A DNA stretch of 64,000 bases. Source: Prauserella shujinwangii. GTDB taxonomy: Bacteria; Actinomycetota; Actinomycetes; Mycobacteriales; Pseudonocardiaceae. The position numbers and the translations under genes were made by a program. The stretch lies in contig NZ_PVNH01000013.1 of assembly GCF_003001955.1 (NCBI RefSeq), positions 1 to 64,000 of the forward strand, written 5' to 3'. Under the pieces are notes generated by a model. It was not told the DNA's origin. It searched no databases and saw nothing but the letters and a program-made list of their open reading frames with translations. Shown here piece by piece: positions 1-12,450 of the stretch (positions are counted from its first letter, which is position 1; each line of letters starts with the position of its first letter).

Positions 1-68
1 TGCCCGGCCTCGTGGTGACAGGTGACCAGCCGGTTCAGGTGGCGCTCGTCGGTGATACGGGTGCCCAT
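1..68 (-). CDS. 5' end of an unidentified protein with a possible HEAG motif
   Basis: A reading frame starts with ATG at position 68 and runs leftward off the window. It is preceded by an AGAGGG ribosome-binding site. The visible 22 residues end in histidine-histidine-glutamate-alanine-glycine. HEAGH is the zinc-binding start of M41-type metallopeptidases, so the protein could be a small peptidase of the kind found on actinobacterial mobile elements. The decisive second histidine lies outside the window, so this is a guess. It sits downstream of traB on the same strand, separated from it by a repeat-bearing spacer. Confidence 0.4.
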   Translation of the reverse strand, partial: MGTRITDERHLNRLVTCHHEAG

Positions 69-205
69 CGAACAGCCCTCTCTGTGGTGACGGTGTGTAA
101 CGGATGGTGGGTAGGGGGTGCCGTCGCGGCTGGTGTGGGGAGGGAGCCGCGTCGGCTGGTGTGGGTGTGGTGTGTGCGGGGTGGCGAGGTGGGTGTGGCG
201 GTGGT

Positions 206-305
206 TCCCTCGGCTCCCTCAGCGGTTGTTGTGGCTGCTCATCGCGAGGGAGGAGTGGTGAGGGAGGGGGTGGGGGAAAACTCCCTCGGTGGCGGTGTCT
301 CCCTC
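206..305. repeat. Cluster of six TCCCTC motifs beside traB, candidate clt transfer site
   Basis: TCCCTC occurs on the plus strand at 206-211, 215-220, 282-287 and 300-305, and inverted (GAGGGA) at 246-251 and 260-265, mostly followed by AG or GG. The last copy overlaps the traB stop codon. In Streptomyces plasmids the TraB translocase recognises short repeats in the clt locus at or near the 3' end of traB. Position and repetition fit that role, but the motif differs from published repeats and function is inferred. No gene is evident from 69 to 303. Confidence 0.4.
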
Positions 306-2520
306 AGTCCTCGTCGTCGTGGTCGTCGGTGTCGGTGTCGTCGTTGTGGTTACGTTCGGTGAGTGCTTCGCGGATGCGGGCGGCGGAGACCTGCATCGCT
401 CCTTCGGTCTTGTAGGGCGCGGCGTTGTGCTCGGCGAGGTAGGCGGTGAGTCGTTGCGGGGTCCAGTCCCGGTAGACGGCCGGGTTGCGCTCGGCGAGGT
501 GTTGCAGCACCTCGCGGGTCTTCATGCGGGGTGCTTGGCCGAGCACGGCGGCGATGTCGGCCAGCGGGTCGGCCTCGGCCGCGTCGAGCAGCTTCGGCGT
601 GGTGGCGGTGATCCCGGCCTGGTCCCGCAGCGCGAGGGCGCGCTCGACCACGGGGGTGATCTCGTCGAGGCCCTTCTCCTTGCGCACGTAGTGCGAGCGG
701 ATCAGGCCCGGGACCTTGGCGAACCCGGCGGCCATGGCGGTGCCGACGTCTTCCCCGGCGACCAGGGTGGTGGCGGAGTAGCCGCGCTTGTGCATGCCGG
801 TGCCGAGGATGGCGTCGTTGCCCTGGTGGTCGTTGATGGCGAAGGCGACCCGGTGGGAGGCGGTCTTGGAGATGCCGCGCGGGAGGCTGTTGGCGTCGGC
901 GTCCGGGGTGACCCACAGCAGCGTGATCCCGGTCTTGCGGGCCTTCTTGGTCACCTTCAGCGCCAGCTCCTTGGCCTCCTCGCCGTGCTGTTTGTGCGTG
1001 AACAGCTCGTGCACCTCGTCGAAGACCACGACGCGGGGGCGCATGCGCGGGTCGCGCTCGGCGATGTCGCGGGTGAGCTTGGCCTCCTCCCCGCCGAGTT
1101 CTTCGAGGATGCGGCCCCGCTCGGACACCTCGCCGACCAGGTTGCGCAGGGTGGCCATGGCGGCCTCGATGTGCTCCTCCTCGTCGCCCTTCACCAGCGT
1201 GCGCAGGCGCGGTTTCATGGGGTCGTAGTCGACGTTGTAGGCCAGCACGTGCACGTCGATATCGACCAGCGGGTCGAGCATCGCGCCGAGCAGCAGGCAG
1301 ATGACCAGGGAGGACTTGCCGGAGCCCATGATCCCGGCGACCAGGTAGTTGCAGGCCATGAGCTTGCCGGTGATCTGCTCGCCCCGGGCGTCGACCGCGA
1401 CCGGCACGCCGGTGAAGTAGTCCGTGGACCCTTCGTGCAGCAGCGGCCACGCGTCGACCGGGCCGGTGAGGATGCCCTGGTCGGCCACCCACAGGTCGAG
1501 CACCCCGGGCTGGTCCTTCGGTTCGGTGGGCCAGACCTCGATCGGTTTGCGCAGCAGGTTGTGCGCCAGCACGCCCTTGCGCTTGGCGATCTCCTCGACC
1601 GGCACCTGCCGGGGCAGCAGCAGTTGCGTGTGATAACCCCGACCGACCCGGGTGGTCGGCGACACCCAGCGCGGCTGCCAGCCCTCCTTGAACGCCCGTG
1701 TCAGCGGCCCGTAGCCCAGTTCCCGCAGCGCCGCGAGGATGGCGCCCTCGTCGGGGACGGTGTCCCGGCCCTCGGCGGGCGTGGCGCGGCTGGCCAGCCA
1801 CGACGGCATCTCGGCGTGCTGCCGCCCCTGGAAGTACAGGTAGGCGATCCCGGCGGCGGTGCCGCCGAGCAGCAGGAACACCCCGTAGGTGACCACGAAC
1901 CACACGACGAACGCGATCGCGTGGACCACCCCGCTGATCGGCGCCACCACATCGGCCAGCTCGCCGCTGTTGATGGCGAGGATGATGCCGAGCACCAGCA
2001 GCAGCCCGGCCATCCCCGCCGCGCCGATCGCGGCGGCTTTGATCCACTGCGCGGGGGCGCGTAGCCAGTCCATCACGCGGTCGTGGCGGCGCTGCTTCTC
2101 CGCCACGTCGGCTTCCTGCCAGTACCGCAGCTTCTCCTCATCACCGGCGGCTTCGGCCGCGCGCATCTGCCGCTCGTAGCGGCCCGCGCCGTGGGTGTCG
2201 CGCCAGCGGCGCCACGCCACCCCCACCCCAGCCACCGGGTAGGCCACCGCGTGCCGCAGCACCGCCCTGGTGCGCTCGTGCGTGGCCACCCGGCGGGTGA
2301 GGCGCCCGACGACGACCAGGTCGTGCTTGTAGCCCTGATAGCGGGCGATGGCCTGCGCCTTCTGACTGGTCAGCCGCTGGTACTCCTCGTCGGTGACCAG
2401 CTCGCCCTCGACCACCTCGGCCTCGACCGGCCGGGCCGAGTCGGTGGCGTCGTGGGTGGGCAGGTAGTGCACTCGCGCCAGCTCTTCCCCGGTGTGCTCG
2501 TTGTCGTGCTCGGTGGTCAC
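304..2520 (-). CDS. traB: TraB-type conjugative DNA translocase, FtsK/SpoIIIE family
   Basis: This 738-residue protein is the motor of AICE conjugation; TraB proteins pump double-stranded DNA between mycelial cells. Two membrane segments lie at about residues 158-182 and 197-227. A Walker A motif (GIMGSGKSS) is near residue 397 and a Walker B (VVVFDE) near 500, as in FtsK/SpoIIIE ATPases. The N terminus is charged and has no signal peptide. The ATG overlaps the stop of the preceding membrane-protein gene by four bases (ATGA), which indicates translational coupling. It ends against a cluster of TCCCTC repeats. Length and architecture are normal for AICE TraB/TraSA proteins. Confidence 0.88.
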   Translation of the reverse strand: MTTEHDNEHTGEELARVHYLPTHDATDSARPVEAEVVEGELVTDEEYQRLTSQKAQAIARYQGYKHDLVVVGRLTRRVATHERTRAVLRHAVAYPVAGVGVAWRRWRDTHGAGRYERQMRAAEAAGDEEKLRYWQEADVAEKQRRHDRVMDWLRAPAQWIKAAAIGAAGMAGLLLVLGIILAINSGELADVVAPISGVVHAIAFVVWFVVTYGVFLLLGGTAAGIAYLYFQGRQHAEMPSWLASRATPAEGRDTVPDEGAILAALRELGYGPLTRAFKEGWQPRWVSPTTRVGRGYHTQLLLPRQVPVEEIAKRKGVLAHNLLRKPIEVWPTEPKDQPGVLDLWVADQGILTGPVDAWPLLHEGSTDYFTGVPVAVDARGEQITGKLMACNYLVAGIMGSGKSSLVICLLLGAMLDPLVDIDVHVLAYNVDYDPMKPRLRTLVKGDEEEHIEAAMATLRNLVGEVSERGRILEELGGEEAKLTRDIAERDPRMRPRVVVFDEVHELFTHKQHGEEAKELALKVTKKARKTGITLLWVTPDADANSLPRGISKTASHRVAFAINDHQGNDAILGTGMHKRGYSATTLVAGEDVGTAMAAGFAKVPGLIRSHYVRKEKGLDEITPVVERALALRDQAGITATTPKLLDAAEADPLADIAAVLGQAPRMKTREVLQHLAERNPAVYRDWTPQRLTAYLAEHNAAPYKTEGAMQVSAARIREALTERNHNDDTDTDDHDDED

Positions 2521-3722
2521 TGGTCCTCCCCCGTGCGGTGTTCGTCGCGAAGCTGGCGGGCGCGCGCGGCGGAGCAGCGCAGCCCCTTACGGATCGACTC
2601 CGCCGAGGTCGGATCGACCCGACCGGCCTCGACCGCCGTCGCCAGCTCGGCGCGGAGCTGTTCCATCGACCGCGCCGGGGGCGGCTCGATCAGGCCCCGG
2701 TTGACCCTCGACTCTCGCTGGTCAGCGCCCCGGTCGAGGGTGGCGACACCACCCGAGTCGCCCCCCTCGTCGGTGGCGTGGTCGGCGTGGTCGATCGCCT
2801 CGGCGATCGTCGTGCCGGGCGTGGTCGGGTGGTCGGCGTCGAGCAGCGCGGCCAGTTCCCGGTCCAGCGCGTCCAGCTCGCCGTCGACAACCGGGTCGAC
2901 GGGCAGGCCGGGCACGATCGCGGCCTGCAACTCCCGGCGGCGGCCGAGCTGGCGGCGGGCGAGGACGTAGCGGCCCGGCGCGTACACCAGCCGCGCGGTG
3001 CCGTCGGGGTCGATCTCGGCCACGGCCTGCCGCACCGCTGCCTTGCGCACCGCTGCGACCTTGCGCGCGGCCCGGCGGTCGATCCGGGCGGCGTCCCGCT
3101 CGGCGCGGGAGCGGCGGGCTCCGGCGGTGATGAGCTGATGCGCCAGCACCCCGGCCACCGACACCAGCCCCATCACCACCGCGATGTCCACACCGCCCGA
3201 GGGAGTGGTCAGGCCGTGCAGGAAGTTGAGCACGAACGCCACCCCGGCGAACAGCCACACCCCGAGCTGCAACGCCCACACCGGCCGCTGCGGGAACCTC
3301 GCCCGCGAGACCTGCACAGCCACCGCGAACGCCCACATACCCAGCTCCGAGAGCACCGGCAGCACGTAGCCGGTGGCGCCGCCGTAGGCGTCGTGGCCAT
3401 AGGCGGCCATCGCCGGAACCGCCATCACCGCACTGACCAGCGCCAGCGGATAGATCAGCAGGTCCACCGCATGCGTCCCCGCCCACGCCCGCAGTCCCGC
3501 CAGCATCGCCCGGCGGCGCTGTGCCCGCTGCTGCTTCGCAGTTCGGCGGGCCTGTTCGCGGGCCTGCTCGTGGGCGTGGGCCTGCTCGGTCGCGGCCCGG
3601 TTCGCCTCACTCAGCGCGGCCAGCCGCACTGCTTCCGCCTCGGCGGCGGCGAGCCGGTCGGCGCGCTTCTGCTCCGCTTCCGCCGCGCGATCCTTGCGGC
3701 GCTCGTCTCGCCACGTGCTCAT
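2517..3722 (-). CDS. DUF2637/SpdB-like membrane protein of the transfer operon
   Basis: A 401-residue protein with an alanine- and arginine-rich, coiled-coil-like N terminus (about 1-75), four hydrophobic segments between about 80 and 205, and a charged C-terminal half. The membrane part resembles the DUF2637/SpdB2 proteins encoded next to traB on actinomycete plasmids, which help plasmid spread between hyphal compartments. Its C terminus contains a short helical stretch that may bind nucleic acid. The ATG overlaps the upstream stop and its own stop overlaps the traB start, so the three genes are probably translated together. The family assignment rests on topology and position. Confidence 0.6.
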   Translation of the reverse strand: MSTWRDERRKDRAAEAEQKRADRLAAAEAEAVRLAALSEANRAATEQAHAHEQAREQARRTAKQQRAQRRRAMLAGLRAWAGTHAVDLLIYPLALVSAVMAVPAMAAYGHDAYGGATGYVLPVLSELGMWAFAVAVQVSRARFPQRPVWALQLGVWLFAGVAFVLNFLHGLTTPSGGVDIAVVMGLVSVAGVLAHQLITAGARRSRAERDAARIDRRAARKVAAVRKAAVRQAVAEIDPDGTARLVYAPGRYVLARRQLGRRRELQAAIVPGLPVDPVVDGELDALDRELAALLDADHPTTPGTTIAEAIDHADHATDEGGDSGGVATLDRGADQRESRVNRGLIEPPPARSMEQLRAELATAVEAGRVDPTSAESIRKGLRCSAARARQLRDEHRTGEDQ

Positions 3723-4045
3723 GCGCTCGCCCCCGTCCCGGTCGTGCCGTCACCGCCGTCGGTGCCGTTGGTGTCGTCGCTGGTCTGCTCGGCGGCCGCC
3801 AGGTGCCGCCGCTGCTCGGTCTCGGCGCGGATCGCGCGCTGCTGACGGGCGTGCCGGAACTCGTGCACACCCCACGCGGCACCGGCCAGCACCGACACGA
3901 CGGCCAGCCACACGCTCACCGTCGCCGCGAGCAACAGCGGCACCCCGACCGCGACCAGCTCACCGACGTGCCAGCCGATCCAGGACACGACCCGATCCGT
4001 GCGGGTCGCCTGGCCCTCAAGCCGTGCGCGTTCCTGCTCAGTCAT
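3719..4045 (-). CDS. Small two-segment membrane protein, Spd-like
   Basis: The 108-residue product has a charged N terminus, two closely spaced hydrophobic segments at about residues 27-60, a basic stretch with Arg-His-Ala-Arg, and a low-complexity Thr/Gly/Asp-rich tail. The ATG at 4045 overlaps the stop of the preceding gene (4042), and its stop overlaps the next ATG. Small membrane proteins of this sort fill Spd loci of AICEs and are thought to assist intramycelial spreading. No specific family is recognised, so a function beyond that context is not claimed. Confidence 0.65.
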   Translation of the reverse strand: MTEQERARLEGQATRTDRVVSWIGWHVGELVAVGVPLLLAATVSVWLAVVSVLAGAAWGVHEFRHARQQRAIRAETEQRRHLAAAEQTSDDTNGTDGGDGTTGTGASA

Positions 4046-4269
4046 GCGGGCACCTCCCGGTCGAAGTAGTGGTTGATCGGCCCACGCGGTGGCTGACTGG
4101 CCTGCCGCGTGGCGTAGCCGTCGAGACGGCGCATGGCCACCTCCAGCACCCGTGCGGCGAGTACGAGGGGGATCCGTGCCAGGTGCAGCAGCAGGAACAG
4201 CACCACCGCACCTGCGAACCGCAGCAGCGCCGCTGTGCCGTAGCGGGCGAGAACGTCGAATGTGGACAT
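4042..4269 (-). CDS. Small membrane protein of the transfer operon
   Basis: A 75-residue protein with one long hydrophobic segment (about residues 15-40) followed by a basic helix and an Asn-His-Tyr-Phe-Asp tail. The start at 4269 is favoured because it follows a GGGGGTG ribosome-binding site and forms a TGATG junction with the upstream stop; a longer in-frame extension would overlap the previous gene. It is part of the overlapping leftward operon. Probably another Spd-type accessory protein; not identified by sequence. Confidence 0.6.
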   Translation of the reverse strand: MSTFDVLARYGTAALLRFAGAVVLFLLLHLARIPLVLAARVLEVAMRRLDGYATRQASQPPRGPINHYFDREVPA

Positions 4270-4484
4270 CACGCACCCCCGAAGATCGCGGCCCAGCAAG
4301 GAAGGCAGTAGCCGTCCTTGGCTGCGTGCCGGGCACAGCCCTCGGTCGCGCACCCACCGGCCCCACGGCGCTGCGCCTGACTCCGCTCACGGCGGCGCTG
4401 ACCGGCGCGCATGTTGTCCTCCAGGGCCTCGCGCGAAGCGGCCCAGTCCTGCTTGAACTGCTGAAACTTGTCGCGGATGCCCAT
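4269..4484 (-). CDS. Small zinc-ribbon-like protein
   Basis: A 71-residue, strongly basic protein. The N-terminal half is predicted helical and charged. The C-terminal third carries four cysteines in a Cys-X4-Cys and Cys-X2-Cys arrangement (GCATEGC, then YCLPC), which looks like a zinc ribbon. The ATG at 4484 shares its A with the stop of the upstream RRQRL-type gene. Two neighbours also have cysteine pairs, so the operon encodes three small metal-binding-type proteins in a row. Nucleic-acid binding is plausible but unproved. Confidence 0.6.
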   Translation of the reverse strand: MGIRDKFQQFKQDWAASREALEDNMRAGQRRRERSQAQRRGAGGCATEGCARHAAKDGYCLPCWAAIFGGA

Positions 4485-4927
4485 CACGCCACCTCCAGCG
4501 CGTCCGTGGCGTCGGCGGCCTCGGCTTCGAAGCAGTCCCAGCACTGCCGGGTGGAGGTCGGCACGCAGTAGTCCTTCTCGCGCGCGCATTCGACACACAC
4601 CCGCCGCGCCCGCAGCGCGAAGGCCAGCGCCCGCCGCTGAGCCGGGCTGGGTACCCGGCGCGGCGCGGCCCGCTCGGTGGAGAACAGCTCGGCCACCGTC
4701 TCCCGCGCATACGGGCGGTGATGCCGAAACACCAGCAACGCCACAGGGTCCTGCCCATTCGGCCGCAACCCGGCCGCCCGCAACTGGGTGCGGGTCAGCA
4801 GCGTCGCCGGGGCCTCGCCCCAGCCGAACACCGGCAGCCCGTCCCGGAAGCCCCGGCACAGCGCCACCACGTGCGTCCGGCCGTCGTGAATGGTGACCAC
4901 CGACTGCCTGCGGTTGCGGGGGTTCAC
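4484..4927 (-). CDS. RRQRL-type zinc-binding protein of AICEs
   Basis: The 147-residue product resembles the small RRQRL-motif zinc-binding proteins common in actinomycete integrative elements. It keeps an Arg-Arg-Gln start near residue 6, a central region with Gly-Trp-Gly-Glu-Ala, a Leu-Thr-Arg-X-Gln-Leu-Arg segment that looks helical, and a C-terminal cysteine set (CVECAREKDYC, then CWDC). The cysteines suggest one or two zinc sites. It overlaps both neighbours by one to four bases. Its role in transfer or regulation is unknown. Confidence 0.65.
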   Translation of the reverse strand: MNPRNRRQSVVTIHDGRTHVVALCRGFRDGLPVFGWGEAPATLLTRTQLRAAGLRPNGQDPVALLVFRHHRPYARETVAELFSTERAAPRRVPSPAQRRALAFALRARRVCVECAREKDYCVPTSTRQCWDCFEAEAADATDALEVA

Positions 4928-5220
4928 CGGCCCTCACCCCCGTTCGTGCCCGGGGCGTAGACGGCGGTGTCCAGCTTGTCCAGCACCAGCCGCACATACT
5001 CGGCAGAGCACTCGCCATCGAGGTAGGCACGCACCGCCGAGGACAAGTACCTGTAGGCGAACGCCGGATCAGCGGCCCGGTCCTTCCGCGTGCAGGTAAC
5101 CGCGCCGCCGTCCCAGTACTCGTCGTGCCAGGGATCGGTGTGCTCGTCGCTGCCGCAAATGCCGCACGTGCTCGCAGGCTCGTACTGCCACCACGGGCGG
5201 GCATCCTCCGGGCTTACCAT
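4924..5220 (-). CDS. Small cysteine- and tryptophan-rich hypothetical protein
   Basis: The 98-residue acidic protein carries an N-terminal Trp-Trp-Gln-Tyr, then CGICGSDEHTDPWH, which could bind zinc through two cysteines and a histidine, and later a single Cys before a helical C terminus. The start is ATG at 5220. Its stop overlaps the next ATG, so it belongs to the transfer operon. A gap of 94 bases separates it from the gene upstream; that gap has no evident gene or clear promoter. I do not recognise the family. Confidence 0.6.
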   Translation of the reverse strand: MVSPEDARPWWQYEPASTCGICGSDEHTDPWHDEYWDGGAVTCTRKDRAADPAFAYRYLSSAVRAYLDGECSAEYVRLVLDKLDTAVYAPGTNGGEGR

Positions 5221-5314
5221 CGGTGTCCTTCCCTTCGATTCGTTACGCGAGTGGTTGGGGAGCCCGGTCCGGCGGCGTTCTTGGCGGGATGCGCCGGGCC
5301 GGGGTCAGAAACGG

Positions 5315-5524
5315 TCATGCGGCACATCGGCCCACCCCCAGCGCCTCGGCGCGCCGGTGCGCGGCCTCGGCCAGCTCGGCGGTGTCGCTGCCCTGCGAGG
5401 CCAGGTGCTCGAGCACAGTGGCCTTGCGCTCGTACCAGCGGGCCACCTGCTCCGGCGACGCATCCAGCGCCGGGCGCGAAAGGTGCAGCTGGCCCAGCTC
5501 GGCCAGCACGTTCAGCGCGGCCAT
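5315..5524 (-). CDS. Small helical hypothetical protein
   Basis: A 69-residue protein that is almost entirely predicted helix, with a repeated Glu-Ala-X-X-Arg pattern in its C-terminal half. The ATG at 5524 is chosen over the GTG three bases upstream because it forms a TGATG junction with the upstream stop. It is the second gene of the leftward AICE operon. No known domain is visible. Confidence 0.55.
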   Translation of the reverse strand: MAALNVLAELGQLHLSRPALDASPEQVARWYERKATVLEHLASQGSDTAELAEAAHRRAEALGVGRCAA

Positions 5525-5829
5525 CACGCGGCCTCGCTCTCCGCCACGACGGCCACATCGAGCCGAGCCGGAAGCGACCGCAGCGCCTCGCGCTCAGCCC
5601 GCCGCACCGAGCGCCACGCCCGGCGCTGATCGGTGAACTCGTGCGAGAGCCGCACCGACGCCGTGCGCTGCTCAGCAGCGATCTCCCGATCGACCTCCTC
5701 AATCAACCGCTCGATCTCATCCCGCTCCGCGTACCTCACGTCCACCTCCTGAGCAGCGCAAACGTCCACATCCACCGCCAGGTCCACCACTTCGCGGGCC
5801 TGACGGTCAGTGATCTGTCCGGTCTTCAT
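5524..5829 (-). CDS. First gene of the leftward AICE operon, hypothetical
   Basis: The 101-residue product is charged and helical (a run of Glu/Arg from about residue 35 to 80), suggesting a coiled coil. The ATG at 5829 has an AAAGGA ribosome-binding site five bases upstream; an earlier in-frame ATG at 5865 lies inside the promoter region and is unlikely. A TATGTT element on the minus strand overlapping 5863-5868 fits a -10 box for this operon. It is divergent from the GntR gene, with duplicated GGTCA motifs between them, so it is probably controlled by that repressor. Confidence 0.6.
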   Translation of the reverse strand: MKTGQITDRQAREVVDLAVDVDVCAAQEVDVRYAERDEIERLIEEVDREIAAEQRTASVRLSHEFTDQRRAWRSVRRAEREALRSLPARLDVAVVAESEAA

Positions 5830-5864
5830 CGAGGTCCTTTCTGTTCGTCTGACATGGTTTAACA

Positions 5865-5938
5865 TAGGTCAGACTCGGTCAGTTTGTCGTTAGGCCATCC
5901 GCGTGAACTAGGTCAGGGTTGGTCAAGGGCGGTATGCT
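5865..5938. promoter_or_regulatory. Divergent promoter region with two TAGGTCA-N5-GGTCA sites
   Basis: Two identical composite direct repeats, TAGGTCA, five bases, then GGTCA, lie at 5865-5881 and 5909-5925, 44 bases apart (about four helical turns). A TATGCT -10-like box at 5933-5938 would start transcription at about 5945, and the second repeat sits where its -35 region would be. The first repeat overlaps the TATGTT box of the leftward operon. The likely binder is the adjacent GntR/KorSA-like protein, repressing both directions. This is inferred from position and repetition. Confidence 0.55.
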
Positions 5939-5965
5939 CGCCGCGTGGAAAGCAGGAGGACGGGC

Positions 5966-6304
5966 ATGGCGCCCTTCGAGCGCGTCGCCGAGAACATCCG
6001 GCAGGCCATCCGGTCCGGGCGAATGAAGCCGGGGGAGAAGCTGCCGAGCAACCGCGAGTTGGCACGGCAGGAAGGTGTCTCCCTGGTCACCACGCAGAAG
6101 GCACTCGGGGTCTTGCAGGACGAGGGCTGGCTCGTCTCACGTGCCTCGGTCGGGGTGTACGTTAACGACACCCAGCCCCAAGAGGCGGCTCCCGAGACAC
6201 TCGACGACCTCCGGCGCGGGTTCGCCGAGCTGCGAGCTACGGTCACCGCGTTGCAGGAGCGCATCGAGGGCATCGAGCAGCGCGCTAGGCAAGCTGACGG
6301 ATGA
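5966..6304 (+). CDS. GntR-family repressor, KorSA-like
   Basis: The 112-residue protein has an N-terminal GntR winged helix (about residues 5-70, with GEKLPSNRELARQEGVS and the QKAL recognition-helix region) and a C-terminal coiled coil (about 80-108) for dimerisation instead of a large effector domain. In pSAM2 the GntR protein KorSA represses transfer activation. The ATG at 5966 has a perfect AGGAGG; a GTG at 5945, almost on the predicted transcription start, could give a 119-residue leaderless version. It faces the leftward transfer operon across a region of GGTCA repeats. Its 3' end overlaps a convergent small membrane-protein gene by 20 bases. Confidence 0.75.
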   Translation: MAPFERVAENIRQAIRSGRMKPGEKLPSNRELARQEGVSLVTTQKALGVLQDEGWLVSRASVGVYVNDTQPQEAAPETLDDLRRGFAELRATVTALQERIEGIEQRARQADG

Positions 6305-6485
6305 ACCCCGCGATGCCCTCGACGACCGTCTCGAACATCCCCAGCAGGCCCTTGGCGGCCTCGGCCGCCTCGCCCGGGTACTTCACGACGAACACAAGCA
6401 GTCCGAGCGTGACCAGCGTGCCGATGATCTTCGGCTTGGCGCTGGAGCCGGTCGGCATCGGAAGGACGTTCTTGTTCTTCGACAT
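6285..6485 (-). CDS. Single-span small membrane protein
   Basis: A 66-residue protein with a short basic, Asn/Lys-rich N terminus, one hydrophobic segment at about residues 20-35, and an amphipathic C-terminal helix. The ATG at 6485 follows GAGGAGG with good spacing. It converges on the GntR gene and overlaps its last 20 bases. Small one-span proteins are frequent near AICE regulators, but I do not recognise this one. Confidence 0.55.
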   Translation of the reverse strand: MSKNKNVLPMPTGSSAKPKIIGTLVTLGLLVFVVKYPGEAAEAAKGLLGMFETVVEGIAGFIRQLA

Positions 6486-6581
6486 CGCTGCCTCCTCGGT
6501 GAGTGGTGGTTCCCGCTGGCATGGCTCAAGGAGACCGCGAATCGGCGGACGCTTACACCACGTTTGCCGACACGGCTGGAG

Positions 6582-6627
6582 ACGTCTCGACCAGCCAAAA
6601 CGTCCGGACAACGTCCCCGAAACGTCC
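6582..6627 (+). promoter_or_regulatory. ACGTCC repeats with exact 11-base period
   Basis: ACGTCC occurs at 6600-6605, 6611-6616 and 6622-6627, exactly 11 bases apart, with a related ACGTCT at 6582-6587. The array ends 13 bases before the ATG of the XRE/DUF5919 gene. Same-face spacing on DNA suggests cooperative binding of a regulator, most simply autoregulation by that HTH protein. No clear -10 box is visible. Confidence 0.5.
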
Positions 6628-6640
6628 CAGGTTGACAGCG

Positions 6641-7381
6641 ATGGCGAATGATCGACTGCGCACCGCGATGATCGCGGCGGGTTTGACCGTGGAAGATGTG
6701 GCGGTCAAGGTCGGGGTCGACCCGAAGACGGTCGAGCGCTGGATCGGCAACGAGACCCGCAAGCCGCACCGCACCACGCGACAGGAGGTCGCCAAGCTCC
6801 TGCGCACCAAGGAAACCGACCTGTGGCCCGCGCCGGGCGCCGAACTACCTGCCAGCGCCAGCGAGACCGAACTCGTCTATCTGTACCCGGCGCGCTCGGC
6901 CATCCCCGGATCAACCTGGGAACGGTTCATCAACGGCGTACGAGAGCAGATGGACGTGCTGGTGTTCTCCGGCGCGTTCCTGGTCGAGCAGTACAACCTC
7001 ATACCGATCATCCAGCGCAAGGTGGCCGAAGGCGTGCGATTCCGGCTCCTCGTCGGCGACGAGACGGCGCCTGCGGTGATCCAGCGTGCCGTCGACGAGG
7101 GCACCCCAGGGGGTCTGGAAGGCCGCATCCAGCTCATGCGCCGCTACCTCGCCGATGTGACCGGCCTCGACGGTGTCGAGGTCCGCACGCACGGCACCGT
7201 GCTCTACAACTCGCTCTACCGCTTTGACGACGACCTCCTGGTCAACGGCCACGCACACGGCGCGCTGGCCGGCCAGAACCCCGTCCTGCACCTCAAACGC
7301 CTGCCCACCGGGTCGATGTGGCAGCACTACATGCGCTCGTTCGACCGCGTGTGGGAGCAGGCGACCCCTGAACCCAGCTAG
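6641..7381 (+). CDS. XRE-type regulator with a DUF5919 sensor-like domain
   Basis: The 246-residue protein begins with a helix-turn-helix (about residues 8-45, LTVEDVAVKVGVDPKTVERW) and continues into a domain like DUF5919 (about 75-240). The second part has an Asp-Val-Leu-Val-Phe-Ser-Gly strand, an Arg-Leu-Leu-Val-Gly-Asp strand and a late Asn-Gly-His-Ala-His-Gly segment reminiscent of a phospholipase-D-like fold that lacks the usual catalytic HxK pair. The start at 6641 keeps the HTH whole. It is coupled to the Nudix gene: its TAG stop is part of that gene's AGGAG. Such pairs recur in AICEs. Confidence 0.7.
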   Translation: MANDRLRTAMIAAGLTVEDVAVKVGVDPKTVERWIGNETRKPHRTTRQEVAKLLRTKETDLWPAPGAELPASASETELVYLYPARSAIPGSTWERFINGVREQMDVLVFSGAFLVEQYNLIPIIQRKVAEGVRFRLLVGDETAPAVIQRAVDEGTPGGLEGRIQLMRRYLADVTGLDGVEVRTHGTVLYNSLYRFDDDLLVNGHAHGALAGQNPVLHLKRLPTGSMWQHYMRSFDRVWEQATPEPS

Positions 7382-7392
7382 GAGCAGCGGAC

Positions 7393-7869
7393 ATGGCTCG
7401 TATCGACTACCTCGACGACCCCAACGCCCCGGCCGTCAACAGCGTCGTCCCCTCGGTCACCGTCGCCGTCCGCGACGACCGGGGCCGCCTTCTGCTCATC
7501 CACAAGGTCGACAACGACCTCTGGGCACTGCCCGGCGGCGGCCACGACCCCGGCGAGCGCATCACCGACACCGCCGTGCGCGAGGTCAAGGAAGAGACCG
7601 GCCTCGACATCGAGGTCACCGGCCTGGTCGGCACCTACACCAACCCCGGCCACGTCATGGCCTACGACGACGGCGAGGTCCGCCAGCAGTTCTCCTTGTG
7701 CTTCCACGGCCGCTGGGTCGGCGGCCAGCCGCGCGAGGACGGCACCGAGACCAAGGCCGCCCGCTGGGTCGACCCCGCCGAGCTGGACCACCTCAACATC
7801 CACCCCTCGATGCGCCTTCGCATCGACCACGCCCTCGACACCAGCCGCACCCAGCCCTACCTCGGCTGA
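7393..7869 (+). CDS. Nudix hydrolase, Pif-like
   Basis: The 158-residue protein has a complete Nudix box: Gly49, Glu55, Arg63, Glu64, Glu67, Glu68 and Gly70 fit the GX5EX7REUXEEXGU pattern. Nudix enzymes cleave nucleoside diphosphates linked to other groups. In pSAM2 the Nudix protein Pif, encoded next to the GntR repressor KorSA, blocks redundant transfer between cells that already carry the element; the context here matches. The ATG at 7393 uses an AGGAG overlapping the upstream stop. Its end overlaps the convergent HD gene by 13 bases. Substrate is unknown. Confidence 0.78.
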   Translation: MARIDYLDDPNAPAVNSVVPSVTVAVRDDRGRLLLIHKVDNDLWALPGGGHDPGERITDTAVREVKEETGLDIEVTGLVGTYTNPGHVMAYDDGEVRQQFSLCFHGRWVGGQPREDGTETKAARWVDPAELDHLNIHPSMRLRIDHALDTSRTQPYLG

Positions 7870-8420
7870 TCGCCCCGTAGCCGCGCCTCCGTGCGCTCCA
7901 CGCACTCCCGCAGAATCGGCGCCGCCTTCACCCACGTCCGATGCACCGGGTGGTCAGGCGGGTAGCGCTCCAAAATCTCCGCGATACGCTCGTCATAGGT
8001 CAACCGCTCACCGCTGGGTCCGGTCGTCAGGTCGGCCGTGACCAGGGCGTCCATCACCGGGCCATTCTCAAACGGGAATTCAGCAAGCTCCTCCGACAAA
8101 CCACGCTCGGCGGCTTCGAAGCGCGCGCCGGAATGGTGCGCTACGAGGCTGACAATGTGCGCTGGCCAGCCGTTGGCTCTCAGATAACGAGCACCATCGA
8201 GTGGATGGAAGCACGTATGCCCAATCTCTCGCGAATAGCCGATGTCATGTAGCCATGCAGCGGTTAGCAGTGTCGGCCTGCCCTCAACGCTTACTGCGGC
8301 TGAAATGTCGTTGGCTCGCCGCGCTACGGCTTGGACATGTTCCCATCGCCTGCCGAGTGGACCAACGAGGCGCCTAGCGAGGGCTGAAGCATCCTCAACC
8401 ATTGTCACAGCTTTCCGCAT
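7857..8420 (-). CDS. HD-domain protein, probable nucleotide phosphohydrolase
   Basis: A protein of about 187 residues with an HD-fold core: a first His near Trp-Glu-His, then AAWLHDIGYS as the HD pair, later a His-His-Ser and an Asp before Thr-Thr-Gly, the usual metal ligands. HD proteins of this size are metal-dependent phosphohydrolases acting on nucleotides. Start choice is uncertain; the ATG at 8420 is placed after the vapC stop, while an earlier start at 8465 would overlap vapC. It converges on the Nudix gene. A truncated relative of its 5' end lies at 9610-9760. Confidence 0.7.
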   Translation of the reverse strand: MRKAVTMVEDASALARRLVGPLGRRWEHVQAVARRANDISAAVSVEGRPTLLTAAWLHDIGYSREIGHTCFHPLDGARYLRANGWPAHIVSLVAHHSGARFEAAERGLSEELAEFPFENGPVMDALVTADLTTGPSGERLTYDERIAEILERYPPDHPVHRTWVKAAPILRECVERTEARLRGDQPR

Positions 8421-8442
8421 CCCGTCTGCGGATGCTTCCGCA

Positions 8443-8853
8443 CTATTCGGCACTTTGGCAGACAAGTTGAAGTCCCTCGTGCTCGGCGAAATCCGCGAAA
8501 TCCCTTATGTTCAATGTCGCGAGCGGTAGCTCGTAGATGATGCTACATGCGGCGATCCAAGTATCGTTTTGGGGGCGTGGTCTGCCGCGTACCTTGGCAT
8601 GTGCAGATATCTCGCCCCACACCTCCGCCACTTCTTTGCCGCCCGGTATGACTGGAACACTTTCAAGCCAGTGCAAAAGTGCCGCACGGTTTCGTGTTCC
8701 CCATTGGCGCATTACCGCCCATTGTGTGAGTTCACCAAAGGTGACGAACGTAATACAGACCGGCTTTCCGGCCAGCTCGGCGAGCAATCCTGATGGCAAT
8801 TGGCCCTTGAAGGAGAGCGAAGCAACGTCGGTGTCGAGGACGACGTATTCCAC
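8443..8853 (-). CDS. vapC: PIN-domain toxin, VapC-like
   Basis: The 136-residue protein has the four acidic residues of PIN ribonucleases: Asp7 (LDTD), Glu41 (FGEL), Asp97 (QNDTWIAA) and Asp118. Length is typical of VapC toxins, which cleave tRNA or rRNA when released from the antitoxin. It starts with GTG three bases after the stop of the small upstream gene, the usual antitoxin-toxin spacing. On a mobile element it would stabilise inheritance. A frameshifted copy occurs 1.3 kb downstream. Confidence 0.85.
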   Translation of the reverse strand: MEYVVLDTDVASLSFKGQLPSGLLAELAGKPVCITFVTFGELTQWAVMRQWGTRNRAALLHWLESVPVIPGGKEVAEVWGEISAHAKVRGRPRPQNDTWIAACSIIYELPLATLNIRDFADFAEHEGLQLVCQSAE

Positions 8854-8856
8854 GAT

Positions 8857-9057
8857 CTACACCAGGTTGGCGTTGCGCTGGTCCCTCACGAACTTGAGAA
8901 ACTCGGCTAGCTCCTCGTCGGTCTCAAAGACCTCGTCGCACACCAGGTCGTCGACGGTCTTCGGTTGCACACCCTGCGCTCTGGCCACCTCATCCACCGA
9001 CAACGGTGCACCGTAGTGACCGGGGCGGCCTGAACGCTCTGCTCCGCCAGCAGTCAT
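8857..9057 (-). CDS. Putative antitoxin partner of VapC
   Basis: The 66-residue protein has a short basic, Gly-rich start, a helix-turn-helix-like segment (LSVDEVARAQGVQPKTVDDL, about residues 17-36), and an acidic helical tail (about 37-60). The DNA-binding head and acidic toxin-covering tail fit a type II antitoxin, although it is not a classical AbrB or ribbon-helix-helix VapB. The second of two adjacent ATGs is preferred for spacing to GGAGG. A perfect inverted repeat, TGTCGCA and TGCGACA, lies 36 bases upstream. Confidence 0.68.
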   Translation of the reverse strand: MTAGGAERSGRPGHYGAPLSVDEVARAQGVQPKTVDDLVCDEVFETDEELAEFLKFVRDQRNANLV

Positions 9058-9369
9058 CATGCACCTCCACTGTTCCGGCCTAACGTGGCCAGTGTCGCAC
9101 TTGTCTTGCGACATGTCGCTTTCCAGCGTGTCTAGTGTCCCACGCGGGGGACATCTGCGTGCTTGCGCTGCTGTGACCTCCAGGGATGGCTCTCTCAGAC
9201 GGCCGCTGCCTGGCGACGAGCGACTTGGACGGTGTGGGTCTGGGGGAGGCCATTCATGGGCTGAGAGAGGCTCTGAGGGGTCGTATCTTGAGCCGGTCGC
9301 GGCAAGTGCGCGGCAAGAAGCACGGCCACGGCCATAAAAGTGCAGGTCAACACTGGTTTGGCCGGTGCT
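9058..9369. promoter_or_regulatory. vapBC promoter spacer with a TGTCGCA/TGCGACA operator
   Basis: No gene is seen in this 312-base spacer. At 9093-9113 TGTCGCA and TGCGACA form a perfect 7-base inverted repeat with a 7-base spacer, well placed for autoregulation by the antitoxin-toxin complex. The corresponding site at about 10428-10450 in the duplicated block is imperfect. The part near 9299-9352 is also similar to 10620-10680, showing that the spacer belongs to the duplicated right end. Confidence 0.55.
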
Positions 9370-9469
9370 CTGTAAATCAGACGGCTCTGCCTTCGGGGGT
9401 TCGAATCCCTCACCCGCCACACCAGCCGGATCGGCCCCGTGACCAGCGGAAACAGGTCACGGGGCCGAT
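9370..9469 (+). other. AICE attachment remnant: 3' half of tRNA-Tyr plus hairpin
   Basis: From about 9370 the sequence reads as the 3' half of a tRNA-Tyr: anticodon loop CTGTAAA (GTA anticodon), a long variable arm, a T-arm (9394-9411, with GGTTCGAATCC) and an acceptor strand ending CCGCCA near 9419. Nothing upstream pairs with the anticodon or acceptor stem, so it is not a working tRNA. Such halves mark the att site of tRNA-integrating elements; SLP1 uses tRNA-Tyr. A perfect 15-base stem at 9430-9444 and 9455-9469 follows, probably the tRNA terminator. Confidence 0.72.
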
Positions 9470-9609
9470 CTTGTCTCATCCGGCCGCGTCCGGCCCGCTA
9501 CGGCCGGTTGTCCCCTGGGCGTCCCAGCTCCGTGGGCCGCTCACCAGTCCTGCAGGGCACGCTCGACGCGCTCCCTCGCGGCGGCACAGCCGGAGCCCGC
9601 GGCACTTCG

Positions 9610-9760
9610 CCGTGCTGCCGGCCCGGCCGACCGCTGAGGTCGCATCCGCGCTGTTGCGCTACGGCTTGGGCGGCTTGGGCGTGTTTCCACCGGTTCCGGG
9701 TGGGCTGACGAAGCCGTTGGCCCACGGACGCAGCGTCAACATCGTTACAATGCCGCACTT
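9610..9760 (-). pseudogene. Remnant of the 5' part of an HD-domain gene
   Basis: On the minus strand this stretch encodes a fragment whose residues (Val-Asp-Ala-Ala-Ser, Gln-Arg-Leu, RWKHAQAAQAVAQQ) match the N-terminal part of the HD protein at 7857-8420 (VEDASALARRL, RWEHVQAVARR). The HD motif and the rest are missing; the sequence continues into unrelated DNA and then the hairpin after the tRNA half. It is the truncated first member of the duplicated HD-vapC-vapB block. Confidence 0.6.
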
Positions 9761-9782
9761 CCCGTCTGCGGAGACTGCCGCG

Positions 9783-10189
9783 CTATTCGGTGCCTTGGCC
9801 AACAATGCGAAGCTCCTCGTGTTCGGCGAAGTCTGTGAAGTCCTTGATGTTCAATGTGGCGAGTGGGAGCTCGTAGATGATGCAGCAAGCCGCGATCCAC
9901 GTGTCGTTCTGGGGGCGTGGCCTGCCACGCGCCTTGGAGTTCGCGAATATCCCCCCACACACTTCGGCCACTTCCTTGCTGCCTGGCAATACCGGGATGC
10001 CTTCGAGCCAATCGAGCAATACTGCTCGCTTCTGTACGCCCCATTGACGCATCACCGCCCATTGGCTGAGTTCGCCAAAAGTGACGTGATGCAGACCGGC
10101 CTTCCTGTCAGCTCCGCGAGCAGCCTGGGCGGCAACTGCTGTTTGAAAGACAGCGAAGCTGCGTCGGTGTCAAGGACGGCGTATCCCAC
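9783..10189 (-). pseudogene. Frameshifted second copy of the VapC-like PIN toxin
   Basis: The sequence is clearly homologous to the vapC gene at 8443-8853, including the Asp7 region (VLDTD) and QNDTWIAA. Compared with the intact copy, four bases (TTCG) are missing at about 10085, after the codons for Val-Cys-Ile-Thr. The first 40 residues and the last 95 are therefore in different frames. The first part starts with GTG three bases after the upstream stop, as in the intact pair. The toxin cannot be made full length unless the difference is a sequencing error. Confidence 0.82.
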
Positions 10190-10192
10190 GTC

Positions 10193-10393
10193 CTACACCA
10201 GATTGGCGTTGCGCTGGTCACGCACGAACTGGAGGAACTCGGCCAGTGCCTCTTCGCTCTCGAAGACCTCGTCGCAGGCCAGATCGTCAACGGTCTTCGG
10301 CTGCACACCCTGCGCTCTGGCCACCTCGTCCACCGACAACGGTGCACCGCGGTGGCCGGGGCGCTCTTGATGCTCCGCTCCGCCAGCCGTCAT
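10193..10393 (-). CDS. Second copy of the VapC-partner antitoxin
   Basis: The 66-residue product is a close relative of the antitoxin at 8857-9057: same length, the same helix-turn-helix-like segment and the same acidic tail ending NANLV. It has the same GGAGGTG ribosome-binding site. Its toxin partner is frameshifted, so this may be an orphan antitoxin able to neutralise the toxin of the neighbouring element, or it may be decaying. The ATG at 10393 is chosen by comparison with the first copy. Confidence 0.62.
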   Translation of the reverse strand: MTAGGAEHQERPGHRGAPLSVDEVARAQGVQPKTVDDLACDEVFESEEALAEFLQFVRDQRNANLV

Positions 10394-10919
10394 CACGCAC
10401 CTCCAACGATCGGACTGCCGTGGCCAGTGTCGCACTGGTTTCGCACGATGTCGCCTTTCCGGCGTGTCCCACGTGAGCGGCATCTGCTCAGGTACGGCCA
10501 CGACCTGCTGAGGCGACCACCCCAGGTGGCGTTACGCGGCCATGCGCGACATGGCCGGGGTTGAATCGCCCGCAGCGGGACGGTCGCACGTTGAGAGCGG
10601 CGCTGGGAAGCCGTCTCGGGGCAGTCCCGGCAGGTGCTTGGCAAGGTGCGGCCTCTGGGCCGTAACCATGCAGGTCGAAGCCCCCGAGCATGGCACTTGG
10701 GTTCGCTACGAATTCCTGGCCGGGTGGGCGGAAAAACCGCCGACCGGCGGAGCGGGAGTCGTTCCCTACGTATCCCGGCCCGGGATCGGTTCGACGCTGC
10801 TTCGCAGGTCAGCGGGTACTCACACGGCACGGGACAATGCTTTCCTGATGCGGCGCGGCACGGTGGCGTCCGCGTGCTCGCCGTATGCTGGCGCGACCTT
10901 CCACGACAGGAGACGGTGA
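10394..10919. other. Spacer of the duplicated right end, no gene seen
   Basis: About 526 bases without a convincing gene. The first 100 bases resemble the vapBC promoter at 9058-9160, with a degraded version of its inverted repeat. A further patch at about 10620-10680 resembles 9299-9352. After that the two copies diverge, and this copy continues with unrelated DNA up to the small gene at 10920. Confidence 0.5.
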
Positions 10920-11174
10920 ATGACGGGGCCAGAGCACTATCGACACGCCGAGAACTACCTGGCCGAAGCCGCGGGCCTCACCGGTGAGCGTGCGCGTGAG
11001 CTGCGCGAGCTTGCTCTCGTGCACGCCACGCTGGCGCACGCCGCGGCTACCGCGATGGTCGGGGCCACCGCGATGGTCAGCGCCGGGATAGGCGACGACA
11101 AAGGTGGGATGCGGACGCTGGCCTCCGACCGGCAGGCCTGGAGAACTGTGGCGAGCGCGAGCGGCGACGGCTGA
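10920..11174 (+). CDS. Small helical hypothetical protein
   Basis: An 84-residue protein beginning Met-Thr-Gly-Pro-Glu-His-Tyr, then mostly predicted helix with Ala-rich stretches and His-Ala-Thr-Leu-Ala-His. Similar short proteins starting GPEHY are widespread on actinobacterial mobile elements and phages, without known function. An AGGAGA ribosome-binding site lies 7 bases before the ATG. It ends 13 bases before a degraded tRNA 3' end, so it was probably the last gene of the older integrated element. Confidence 0.6.
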   Translation: MTGPEHYRHAENYLAEAAGLTGERARELRELALVHATLAHAAATAMVGATAMVSAGIGDDKGGMRTLASDRQAWRTVASASGDG

Positions 11175-11187
11175 CGCCGACCCGCGT

Positions 11188-11270
11188 CCCCCTTCGGGGT
11201 TCGCGTCCCGCGCCCGCCACACCAGCCGGACCGGCCCCGCGACCAGCGCAGAGAGGCCACGGGGCCGATC
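11188..11270 (+). other. Degraded second tRNA-Tyr 3' end plus hairpin
   Basis: The stretch resembles the T-arm, acceptor strand and terminator at 9390-9469: CCTTCGGGGTTCG, then CGCCCGCCACACCAGCCGGA, then a GGCCCCG and CGGGGCC stem. The variable arm and anticodon region are lost and the T-arm has base changes. It appears to be the attachment border of an older insertion, after which ordinary chromosomal genes begin. Confidence 0.6.
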
Positions 11271-11352
11271 TCGTCCCACCCGCTCGGGACTGGCCGGTCG
11301 CGGTCGGGAATCGAGAAGCGGCGGCCACCGAGCGTGGTTAGCCTGAAGCGCC

Positions 11353-11763
11353 ATGGACCTCAGGATTCACACGAGCTTCCTGCCGCACGATGACCCGGAC
11401 GCGTCCCTCGCCTTCTGGCGGGACGTCCTCGGCTTCGAGGTTCGCAGCGACGTCGGGCAGGGCGAGATGCGCTGGATCACGGTCGGCCCGCCCGGCCAGC
11501 CCGCCACGTCCATCCTCCTCGGGCCGCCCGGCGCCGATCCCGGCATCACCGACGACGAGCGCCGCACCATCGCCGAGATGATGGCGAAGGGCACCTACGG
11601 CTGGATCCACCTGGCCACCGCCGACCTCGACGGCACGTTCGAGCGGGTGCGGGCACGCGGCGCGGAGGTCGCGCAGGAGCCGATCGAGCAGCCGTACGGG
11701 ATCCGGGACTGCGCCTTCCGCGATCCCGCCGGAAACCTGATCCGCGTTCAGGAACTCCGCTGA
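11353..11763 (+). CDS. VOC-family (glyoxalase/bleomycin-resistance-like) protein
   Basis: The 136-residue protein is a single vicinal-oxygen-chelate domain. It shows an N-terminal His-Thr and Phe-Trp-Arg-Asp-Val-Leu-Gly-Phe-Glu pattern, a central Trp-Ile-His-Leu-Ala-Thr strand and a C-terminal Asp-Cys-Ala-Phe-Arg-Asp-Pro-Ala-Gly-Asn, all standard VOC landmarks. Such proteins bind a metal and act as lyases, dioxygenases or drug-binding proteins; the substrate is not predictable. It is the first clearly chromosomal gene after the integrated elements and runs in the same direction as a second VOC gene. Confidence 0.8.
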   Translation: MDLRIHTSFLPHDDPDASLAFWRDVLGFEVRSDVGQGEMRWITVGPPGQPATSILLGPPGADPGITDDERRTIAEMMAKGTYGWIHLATADLDGTFERVRARGAEVAQEPIEQPYGIRDCAFRDPAGNLIRVQELR

Positions 11764-11841
11764 GCGTCACCGCGCACCGGCAGGCCGATCGGTCAGGAAT
11801 CGAGAAGTCCGGGCTCCCGGACCCTCACTAGCGTGACCGGT

Positions 11842-12450
11842 ATGGCTTCCATCGAGTACGTGACGATCGAGGTGGCCGACACCGCGGCCGCCGACCGCTT
11901 CTATACCGCCGCCTTCGATCTCGGGGCCCGGGTGCGCTTGCGGGAGGCGGAGGCACCGACGACCGGTTTCCGCGGGTGCACGCTGTCGCTCGTCGTGTCG
12001 CGGCCGGCCACCGTCAACAGCCTCGTCGACGCCGCGCTCGCCGCGGGCGCCACGGCGCTGAAGCCGGCCGCGAAGTCGCTCTGGGGCTACGGCGGCGTCG
12101 TACAGGCCCCGGACGGGACCATCTGGTCGATCGCGTCCTCGGCGAAGAAGGACACCGGCCCCGCCACCCGGCGGATCGACGAGATCGTGCTCCAGCTGGG
12201 TGTCGCGGACGTGGCCGCGAGCAAGCGGTTCTACGTCGACCGCGGTTTCACCGTGGCGAAGAGCTTCGGCCGCAGGTACGTCGAGTTCGACACCGGCCCG
12301 GTGAAGCTGACCCTCAACCGGCGCCGCGCCCTCGCCAAGGTCGCCGGTGTCTCCGCCGACGGCACGGGATCACACCGGCTCGGCATCGCCAGCGATGCCG
12401 GGCCCTTCACCGACCCGGACGGGTTCGGCTGGGAGGCCGCGTCCCGGTGA
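11842..12450 (+). CDS. Two-domain VOC-family protein
   Basis: About 202 residues forming two VOC-like halves. The first half (about 1-105) includes Phe-Tyr-Thr-Ala-Ala-Phe-Asp-Leu-Gly and Ala-Pro-Asp-Gly-Thr-Ile-Trp; the second (about 110-200) has Lys-Arg-Phe-Tyr-Val-Asp-Arg-Gly-Phe and ends in an Asp-Pro-Asp-Gly-Phe-Gly-Trp-Glu. Proteins of this design are often annotated as glyoxalases of unknown substrate. The ATG at 11842 is preferred over a GTG nine bases earlier. It has no evident partner besides the VOC gene upstream. Confidence 0.75.
   Translation: MASIEYVTIEVADTAAADRFYTAAFDLGARVRLREAEAPTTGFRGCTLSLVVSRPATVNSLVDAALAAGATALKPAAKSLWGYGGVVQAPDGTIWSIASSAKKDTGPATRRIDEIVLQLGVADVAASKRFYVDRGFTVAKSFGRRYVEFDTGPVKLTLNRRRALAKVAGVSADGTGSHRLGIASDAGPFTDPDGFGWEAASR

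Follow-up and report, generated by a model that had tools for sequence, protein, structure and literature searches.

Probable accretion of integrative elements at a tRNA-Tyr gene of Prauserella shujinwangii

SLP1 of Streptomyces, one of the actinomycete integrative and conjugative elements (AICEs), integrates in tRNA-Tyr. Its integrase subfamily and its Prim-Pol are named in PMC3218068, where tandem AICEs are also given for Frankia (Fean5518/Fean5534, tRNA-Lys) and S. avermitilis (Sav3708/Sav3728, tRNA-Arg). A Streptomyces population is reported to hold several AICEs at tRNA-Arg, with direct repeats and a conserved remnant devoid of traB, for which the authors use the term accretion (PMC9513070); accretion both of AICEs and of decayed remnants has already been described (PMC9513070, PMC3218068). 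Cis-mobilizable elements (CIMEs), flanked by attachment (att) sites, have been defined and counted in Streptococcus salivarius (PMC7563491), where Table 2 mostly lists them distal to the target gene, and stabilisation of a composite island by a toxin-antitoxin pair has been reported (PMC8978831). Here, I describe a pile-up of this sort in Prauserella shujinwangii (Pseudonocardiaceae), in a window comprising the first 64,000 bases of contig C13 (assembly of 21 contigs, 6.1 Mb): a resident AICE, hereafter E2, appears to lie in tRNA-Tyr beside remnants of older relatives, and site-specific accretion at that gene is considered the right explanation with a probability of about 0.9.

As read from the sequence, the layout begins with an intact tRNA-Tyr, on contig C9, followed by E2 and its right attachment site (attR1). 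Beyond attR1 come an AICE left end and then an AICE right end, both older than E2, and a decayed tRNA half borders the chromosome. According to the proposed history, one or more older elements would have entered the 3' end of the tRNA via their own tyrosine integrase, each supplying a replacement tRNA end and a terminator-like hairpin; a deletion from within an integrase gene to within an HD-domain hydrolase gene would have taken out the middle, stranding the rest; and E2 would have come last, its attP recombining with the tRNA end that the earlier insertion had restored and the remnant thereby being moved outward.

Evidence for stacking at tRNA-Tyr

The left border of E2 was located on C9 by searching the genome itself with window 9330-9480. 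The tRNA-Tyr found there by ARAGORN (315988-316070), the single full-length match in this genome, is followed by a tyrosine integrase and a 62-residue excisionase-like gene (minus strand), then by a DUF3631 gene and a further open reading frame (ORF), the contig ending 3.9 kb past the tRNA. Bases 316020-316078 of C9 and 9370-9428 of the window form an att repeat of 59 identical bp, and both the intact tRNA-Tyr and the integrase that the original prediction, made from the window alone, had anticipated at the left border are thus present; at the two tRNA-half sites ARAGORN called no tRNA, as expected for 3' halves. Bases 1-9428 are assigned to the right part of an AICE. Six window proteins are colinear with those of a tRNA-Tyr element in the family genome G107 (45-84% identity), a tyrosine integrase stands beside an att site at the tRNA 3' end (under the curated cut-off), and a single FtsK/SpoIIIE-type TraB scores above its cut-off; as to replication genes, E2 has the DUF3631 gene on C9, Prim-Pol being seen only in a sister element at tRNA-Ser.

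Directly right of attR1, bases 9421-9610 align with the left ends of the elements in G107, G015 and G100 and with the segment right of the attR of G283, each of these four alignments breaking off at 9610, and the minus-strand translation of window 9471-9760 ends in RERVERALQDW-stop, resembling the integrase C-termini of G015 (RDRVERALQGW-stop) and G033 (RERVERGLRGW-stop). Past the hairpin (9479-9615), alignment scores against the best of 500 shuffles each, made in two-base blocks, were 101 versus 48 for G107, 82 versus 48 for G015 and 73 versus 59 for G283, whereas E2's own left end (33 versus 47) gives no match there. A search with window 9400-9668 returned some match in 183 of 297 family genomes (own included), most of those listed being tRNA end and hairpin only; among the matches listed, the best outside one is that of G107, with 74% over query 1-211. 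The presence of an AICE left end in this position points to stacking, and a tandem duplication would not give it. Hence a second integrase remnant, for which the original prediction had looked left of position 1, does exist, but right of attR1, and the successive integration of related AICEs that it had proposed is supported with two corrections, the first being that the older right end is not the sole survivor.

Hairpins were compared simply by the number of matches per 60 bases, a crude measure in which the G068 attR flank did not align and was uninformative. The attR1 hairpin as an untouched native terminator was rejected, its nearest counterparts (0.88-0.92) being the AICE left-end hairpins of G068, G107, G015 and G100 and the flank of G001. 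The attR2 hairpin, nearest to that of attR1 (0.87) and then to four at 0.78, including the flank of G004, where no integrase match was found, may be either native or a third left-end scar.

The second line of evidence consists of two homologous blocks, A in E2 and B beyond the scar, each with HD gene, vapC, antitoxin gene, spacer, tRNA-Tyr 3' half and hairpin. Their existence, spacer and hairpin included, is borne out by blastn: 8327-9132 matches 9671-10468 with 77.0% identity over 809 nt (E 2.8e-172), and the tRNA-Tyr 3' end with its hairpin matches between 9390-9478 and 11191-11278 with 85% over 89 nt. The repeated gene order holds too, but in a worn form: block B keeps just the first ~45-50 codons of the HD gene (homology begins near 9650-9668), its vapC frame is broken while the antitoxin frame is open, and ~500 bp without block A counterpart (10690-11190) separate the homologous spacer from the decayed tRNA half. 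The promoter that had been listed in both blocks is putative, a simple consensus scan having found none of sigma-70 type in 8800-11400. Neither tandem repeats in 7000-12000 nor DNA-level matches to the blocks in the 20 relative loci first fetched were found; the extra ~500 bp have no convincing match in G004, and of 150 family genomes, this one among them, 11 have weak relatives of their 84-residue ORF, which lacks any Pfam or NCBIfam match.

Nonsynonymous (dN) and synonymous (dS) divergence between A and B, by NG86, amounts to 0.094 and 0.39 for the antitoxin copies (dN/dS 0.24), 0.135 and 0.87 for the N-terminal piece of vapC (0.16) and 0.139 and 1.66 for its C-terminal piece (0.08), the only one for which YN00 yielded a value (dN 0.159, dS 1.25). 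Since the divergence sits mainly at silent sites, the copies evolved apart as working genes. Moreover, the blocks differ by 23%, while this genome and G001, the one same-genus genome compared, differ by 10% over YajQ, tRNA-Tyr and hairpin; together with the silent-site divergence, this disfavours a recent local duplication.

Number and order of the older elements

Just inside the att sites, many elements have two short units ~11 bp apart, whose type varies (GTCCCA, GCCCCA, CGGCAA, others); such paired arm repeats are seen at the tRNA-Tyr AICE ends of L147, L070, L150, L151, L154, L159, L162 and other loci. The units usually match between the two ends of an element, which suggests an integrase-specific arm code: with left-arm strings chosen by eye and then compared with right ends, the own right end came first or second for 11 of 12 elements (ties counted in favour) and fifth in G283. 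E2 has the CGGCAA type at both ends, as does the G065 element, whose integrase is 75% identical to that of E2; this pair is unique on the plus strand of the window and of a 20-kb piece of C9, and also occurs near both G065 element ends.

The scar, conversely, is of GTCCCA type, its best right-end match being G107 (15 of 21), while the arm of block B is of a decayed CGGCAA type (14 of 21 to E2 and 13 to each of the two runners-up; shuffling alone gives up to 14, with a mean of 10.9 and a 95th percentile of 13). These differing arms suggest that scar and older right end may stem from two older elements fused by deletion, to which slightly better than even odds may be given. That one older AICE owned both ends and lost its middle falls somewhat short of even odds: it takes the fewest events, related right modules are found with different integrases at tRNA-Tyr, and the opposing arm signal is modest given decay and chance matches up to 14, yet it has to accommodate two unlike arms when, for 11 of 12 elements, the arm at the other end ranks first or second. 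The original prediction of two stacked elements is therefore retained as to stacking, whereas the number of older elements may have to be raised.

The order of events could also be reversed, E2 being older and the right-hand element having entered at its attR. The same final topology would result, but attR1 equals attL over 59 bp, in contrast to the drifted attR2, and genes are missing from block B, which makes this order improbable and fits the newer element lying inside the old border, as first proposed, although topology alone cannot prove it. Hardly credible, and rejected as largely refuted, is a tandem duplication of E2's own right end, with tRNA halves carried along and one copy then decaying: the blocks do have gene order, spacer and hairpin in common, and their VapCs (75% over 100 residues, 77% over 35) are closer to each other than to the outside VapCs found (62% for the best in 297 genomes; two named contigs of metagenome-assembled genomes give 68% over residues 7-131 and 71% over one segment, respectively), but the junction holds an AICE left end with integrase codons unmatched by E2's own, and silent-site divergence is not expected from a redundant copy in decay.

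Several points weigh against accretion as reconstructed here. Besides the final topology, which by itself leaves the order of events unfixed, the integrase of E2 matches Phage_integrase (E 3.5e-5) with 24.1 bits, under the Pfam cut-off of 27.1 (that of G107, at 26.5 bits, is likewise under it), and the middle of E2 did not turn up in the own assembly when the M41-type protein of one relative served as query, an empty answer that shows little, so that E2 is not seen whole. No recognisable arm repeat was found just upstream of attR2 (best 13 of 21, the chance level), and the 500 bp upstream of it have no counterpart in block A. The antitoxin has no Pfam or NCBIfam family match. As for 9479-9615, the G100 left end scores just slightly above the best shuffle (55 versus 47), and the G001 flank, for which no shuffles were made, scores 40, not above those of the other comparisons.

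The site in relatives and the genes of the stack

Relatives were taken from 35 family genomes, one per genus (G001-G035), three of them cut off at contig ends (G007, G012, G028), and from a second set of 19 genomes picked from att matches and hence biased, G023 being common to both. A near-full-length integrase match follows tRNA-Tyr in 7 of 32 genomes (G006, G008, G014, G015, G022, G032, G035; counted by match alone) and an integrase scar in four (G016, G025, G026, G033); with G001, which has a left-end scar with arm repeats and no integrase match, element or scar totals 12 of 32, the other 20 having no integrase match in the fetched stretch of 5.5 to 20 kb. Stacked remnants past a second att site occur in G006 (attR, then integrase remnant) of the first set and in G283 and G286 of the biased one. 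These three are read as independent stacks. Other genera of Pseudonocardiaceae also bear scars and a few more stacks at this gene.

An empty site, suggested as a check, was met only in part: the G001 flank aligns with the G015 element left end, arm repeats included, over 140 of 188 columns and is not a clean empty site, while in G004 the flanking glyoxalase-like gene pair lies 0.57 kb past tRNA-Tyr. In G001, colinearity with the window is regained ~2.1 kb after tRNA-Tyr, where the genes correspond to those from window 25506 on, and the bulk of window 12.5-25 kb is missing at that locus; by eye only, 19395-19709 resembles a transposase fragment.

Related antitoxins can act as anti-addiction modules. 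In block A a PIN-domain toxin gene, above cut-off, adjoins a small putative antitoxin gene, and the VapBC beside attR probably acts as an addiction module. Counting this genome, 32 of 297 in the family have a VapC relative, and a similar antitoxin gene stands beside vapC at 20 of 29 loci (absent in L126, L133, L138, L139, L141, L142, L144, L145 and L146) and at 16 of 21 loci from named contigs, several of which are the same places. Among 20 larger VapC regions, vapC lies downstream of an integrase at tRNA-Tyr in G204, and only in G199 between tRNA-Tyr and a second tRNA half. This G199 island (L169 8861-11007, vapC and antitoxin), at first sight a perfect parallel, may have another origin, given that the repeat flanking it extends over ~520 bp (80% identity) and that no integrase remnant found there is convincing. 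That a second antitoxin has survived may be incidental, or this antitoxin may dampen the action of E2's VapC. It is a rather doubtful proposal that what remains of a collapsing AICE is determined by an att-proximal VapBC and that the older antitoxin shields the cell against loss of the newer element; if true, collapsed elements would persist at tRNA-Tyr as antitoxin- or VapBC-bearing remnants, accretion itself altering the stability of later arrivals. The second antitoxin makes such an effect testable.

Elsewhere in E2, the regulator gene adjoins Nudix and HD genes also in G283, G176, G131 and G165, and the Nudix gene in G006, HD being set apart there; G131 has regulator, Nudix, HD, vapC and antitoxin in E2's order. 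A plasmid search with 7393-9480 returned 18 records, 11 from Streptomyces, mostly for Nudix genes.

The window begins at a contig break because the contig ends are near-identical (99% for the last 106 bases of C9/C5, 98% for the first 129 bases of C9/C13), in sequence common to two sister AICEs. Near its end, C5 carries a tRNA-Ser along with genes for an integrase, a DUF3631-type protein and Prim-Pol; the corresponding 3' end of tRNA-Ser lies 10.6 kb into C9, a pairing that points to a second, related AICE at tRNA-Ser. Segments of 2313 and 622 bp of its transfer region match window 1976-4272 and 5212-5829 at 87-88%, its TraB being 42% identical overall to that of E2. From the att types, the contig order is set as C5-C9-C13.

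Table 1. Features of the tRNA-Tyr stack and its surroundings (window positions unless a contig is named)
Feature	Position	Strand	Basis
E2, right part	1..9428		att repeat and colinearity with G107; window opens at contig break inside E2
TraB-like FtsK/SpoIIIE DNA translocase of E2	304..2520	-	Pfam FtsK_SpoIIIE 28.6 bits, cut-off 24; 69% to G107 homologue
Helix-turn-helix (HTH) regulator gene, regulator-Nudix-HD module of E2	6668..7381	+	weak HTH matches under Pfam cut-offs
Nudix hydrolase gene of E2	7393..7869	+	Pfam NUDIX 80.6 bits
HD-domain hydrolase gene of E2, block A	7857..8465	-	Pfam HD 24.6 bits, cut-off 22
vapC-like PIN toxin gene, block A, frame open	8443..8853	-	Pfam PIN 29.7 bits, cut-off 23.6; NCBIfam VapC models below cut-off
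Putative antitoxin gene, block A	8857..9060	-	start taken at ATG behind GGAGGT site
E2 right-arm integrase repeat, two CGGCAA units 11 bp apart	9298..9318	+	like pair near attL on C9
attR1 core, tRNA-Tyr 3' half and following bases	9370..9428	+	identical to attL
Left-end scar of older AICE: hairpin, GTCCCA-type arm repeats (9509-9529), integrase end	9421..9610		66-74% to G107, G015, G100 left ends and G283 scar
Integrase C-terminus remnant, ~23 codons	9541..9610	-	frame broken inside
Truncated 5' part of HD gene, block B	9650..9790 (approximate limits)	-	alignment with block A
vapC copy, broken frame, block B	9786..10189	-	similarity to block A in two frames
Antitoxin copy, frame open, block B	10193..10396	-	85% amino acid identity to block A, GGAGGT site kept
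Decayed E2-type right-arm repeat, block B	10626..10646	+	inside A-B alignment
DNA without block A counterpart	10690..11190		no blastn match in 20 relative loci; holds 84-residue ORF 10920-11174
attR2, decayed tRNA-Tyr 3' half and hairpin, outer border of stack	11191..11278	+	80% to own tRNA-hairpin query, 85% to attR1
Chromosomal flank, two glyoxalase-superfamily genes	11301..12450	+	Pfam Glyoxalase; homologous pair downstream of tRNA-Tyr in G004
Second AICE at tRNA-Ser	C5 (L241 9149-9234) and C9 start (L250 1-10716)

Comparison with described systems

Among the matches listed in a literature search, no title or abstract opening dealt with stacked AICEs at tRNA-Tyr in Pseudonocardiaceae. The regulator-Nudix-HD module of E2 resembles the mdp-nud-xre cluster reported for AICEs (PMC3218068). 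The remnant at 9421-11278 in turn resembles a CIME, being apparently derived by deletion, flanked by att sites and provided with an integrase remnant only, with no conjugation gene among the called genes. Like the CIMEs of S. salivarius, it adjoins a resident element and retains cargo along with att sites; unlike them, its outer att is decayed and conjugation would be of TraB type (PMC7563491). Joint excision via that decayed site, attR2, with its 80-85% identity and no clear arm repeat, is unlikely.

Along the same line, Fean5518/Fean5534 and Sav3708/Sav3728 are tandem AICEs in one tRNA gene, as here, but Fean5518 and Fean5534 are reported to excise separately and together, whereas the outer partner at this locus is a decayed fragment (PMC3218068). 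The Streptomyces case shares with this one several elements at one tRNA site flanked by repeats, plus a remnant; the present locus differs in its target, tRNA-Tyr, in its family and in a remnant of ~1.9 kb that shares homology with the resident element's right end and in which a left-end scar and a copy of the antitoxin gene persist (PMC9513070). SLP1 is an AICE like E2 and would have the same target gene.

To sum up, a single 11-kb stretch displays every layer of the pile-up, namely the resident element, replaced tRNA ends with their hairpins, arm repeats and a deletion remnant, and the arm repeats offer a possible way to assign scars to integrase types. Set beside the described systems, the locus is a well-supported new example of a known process, ordinary in kind and unusually legible.

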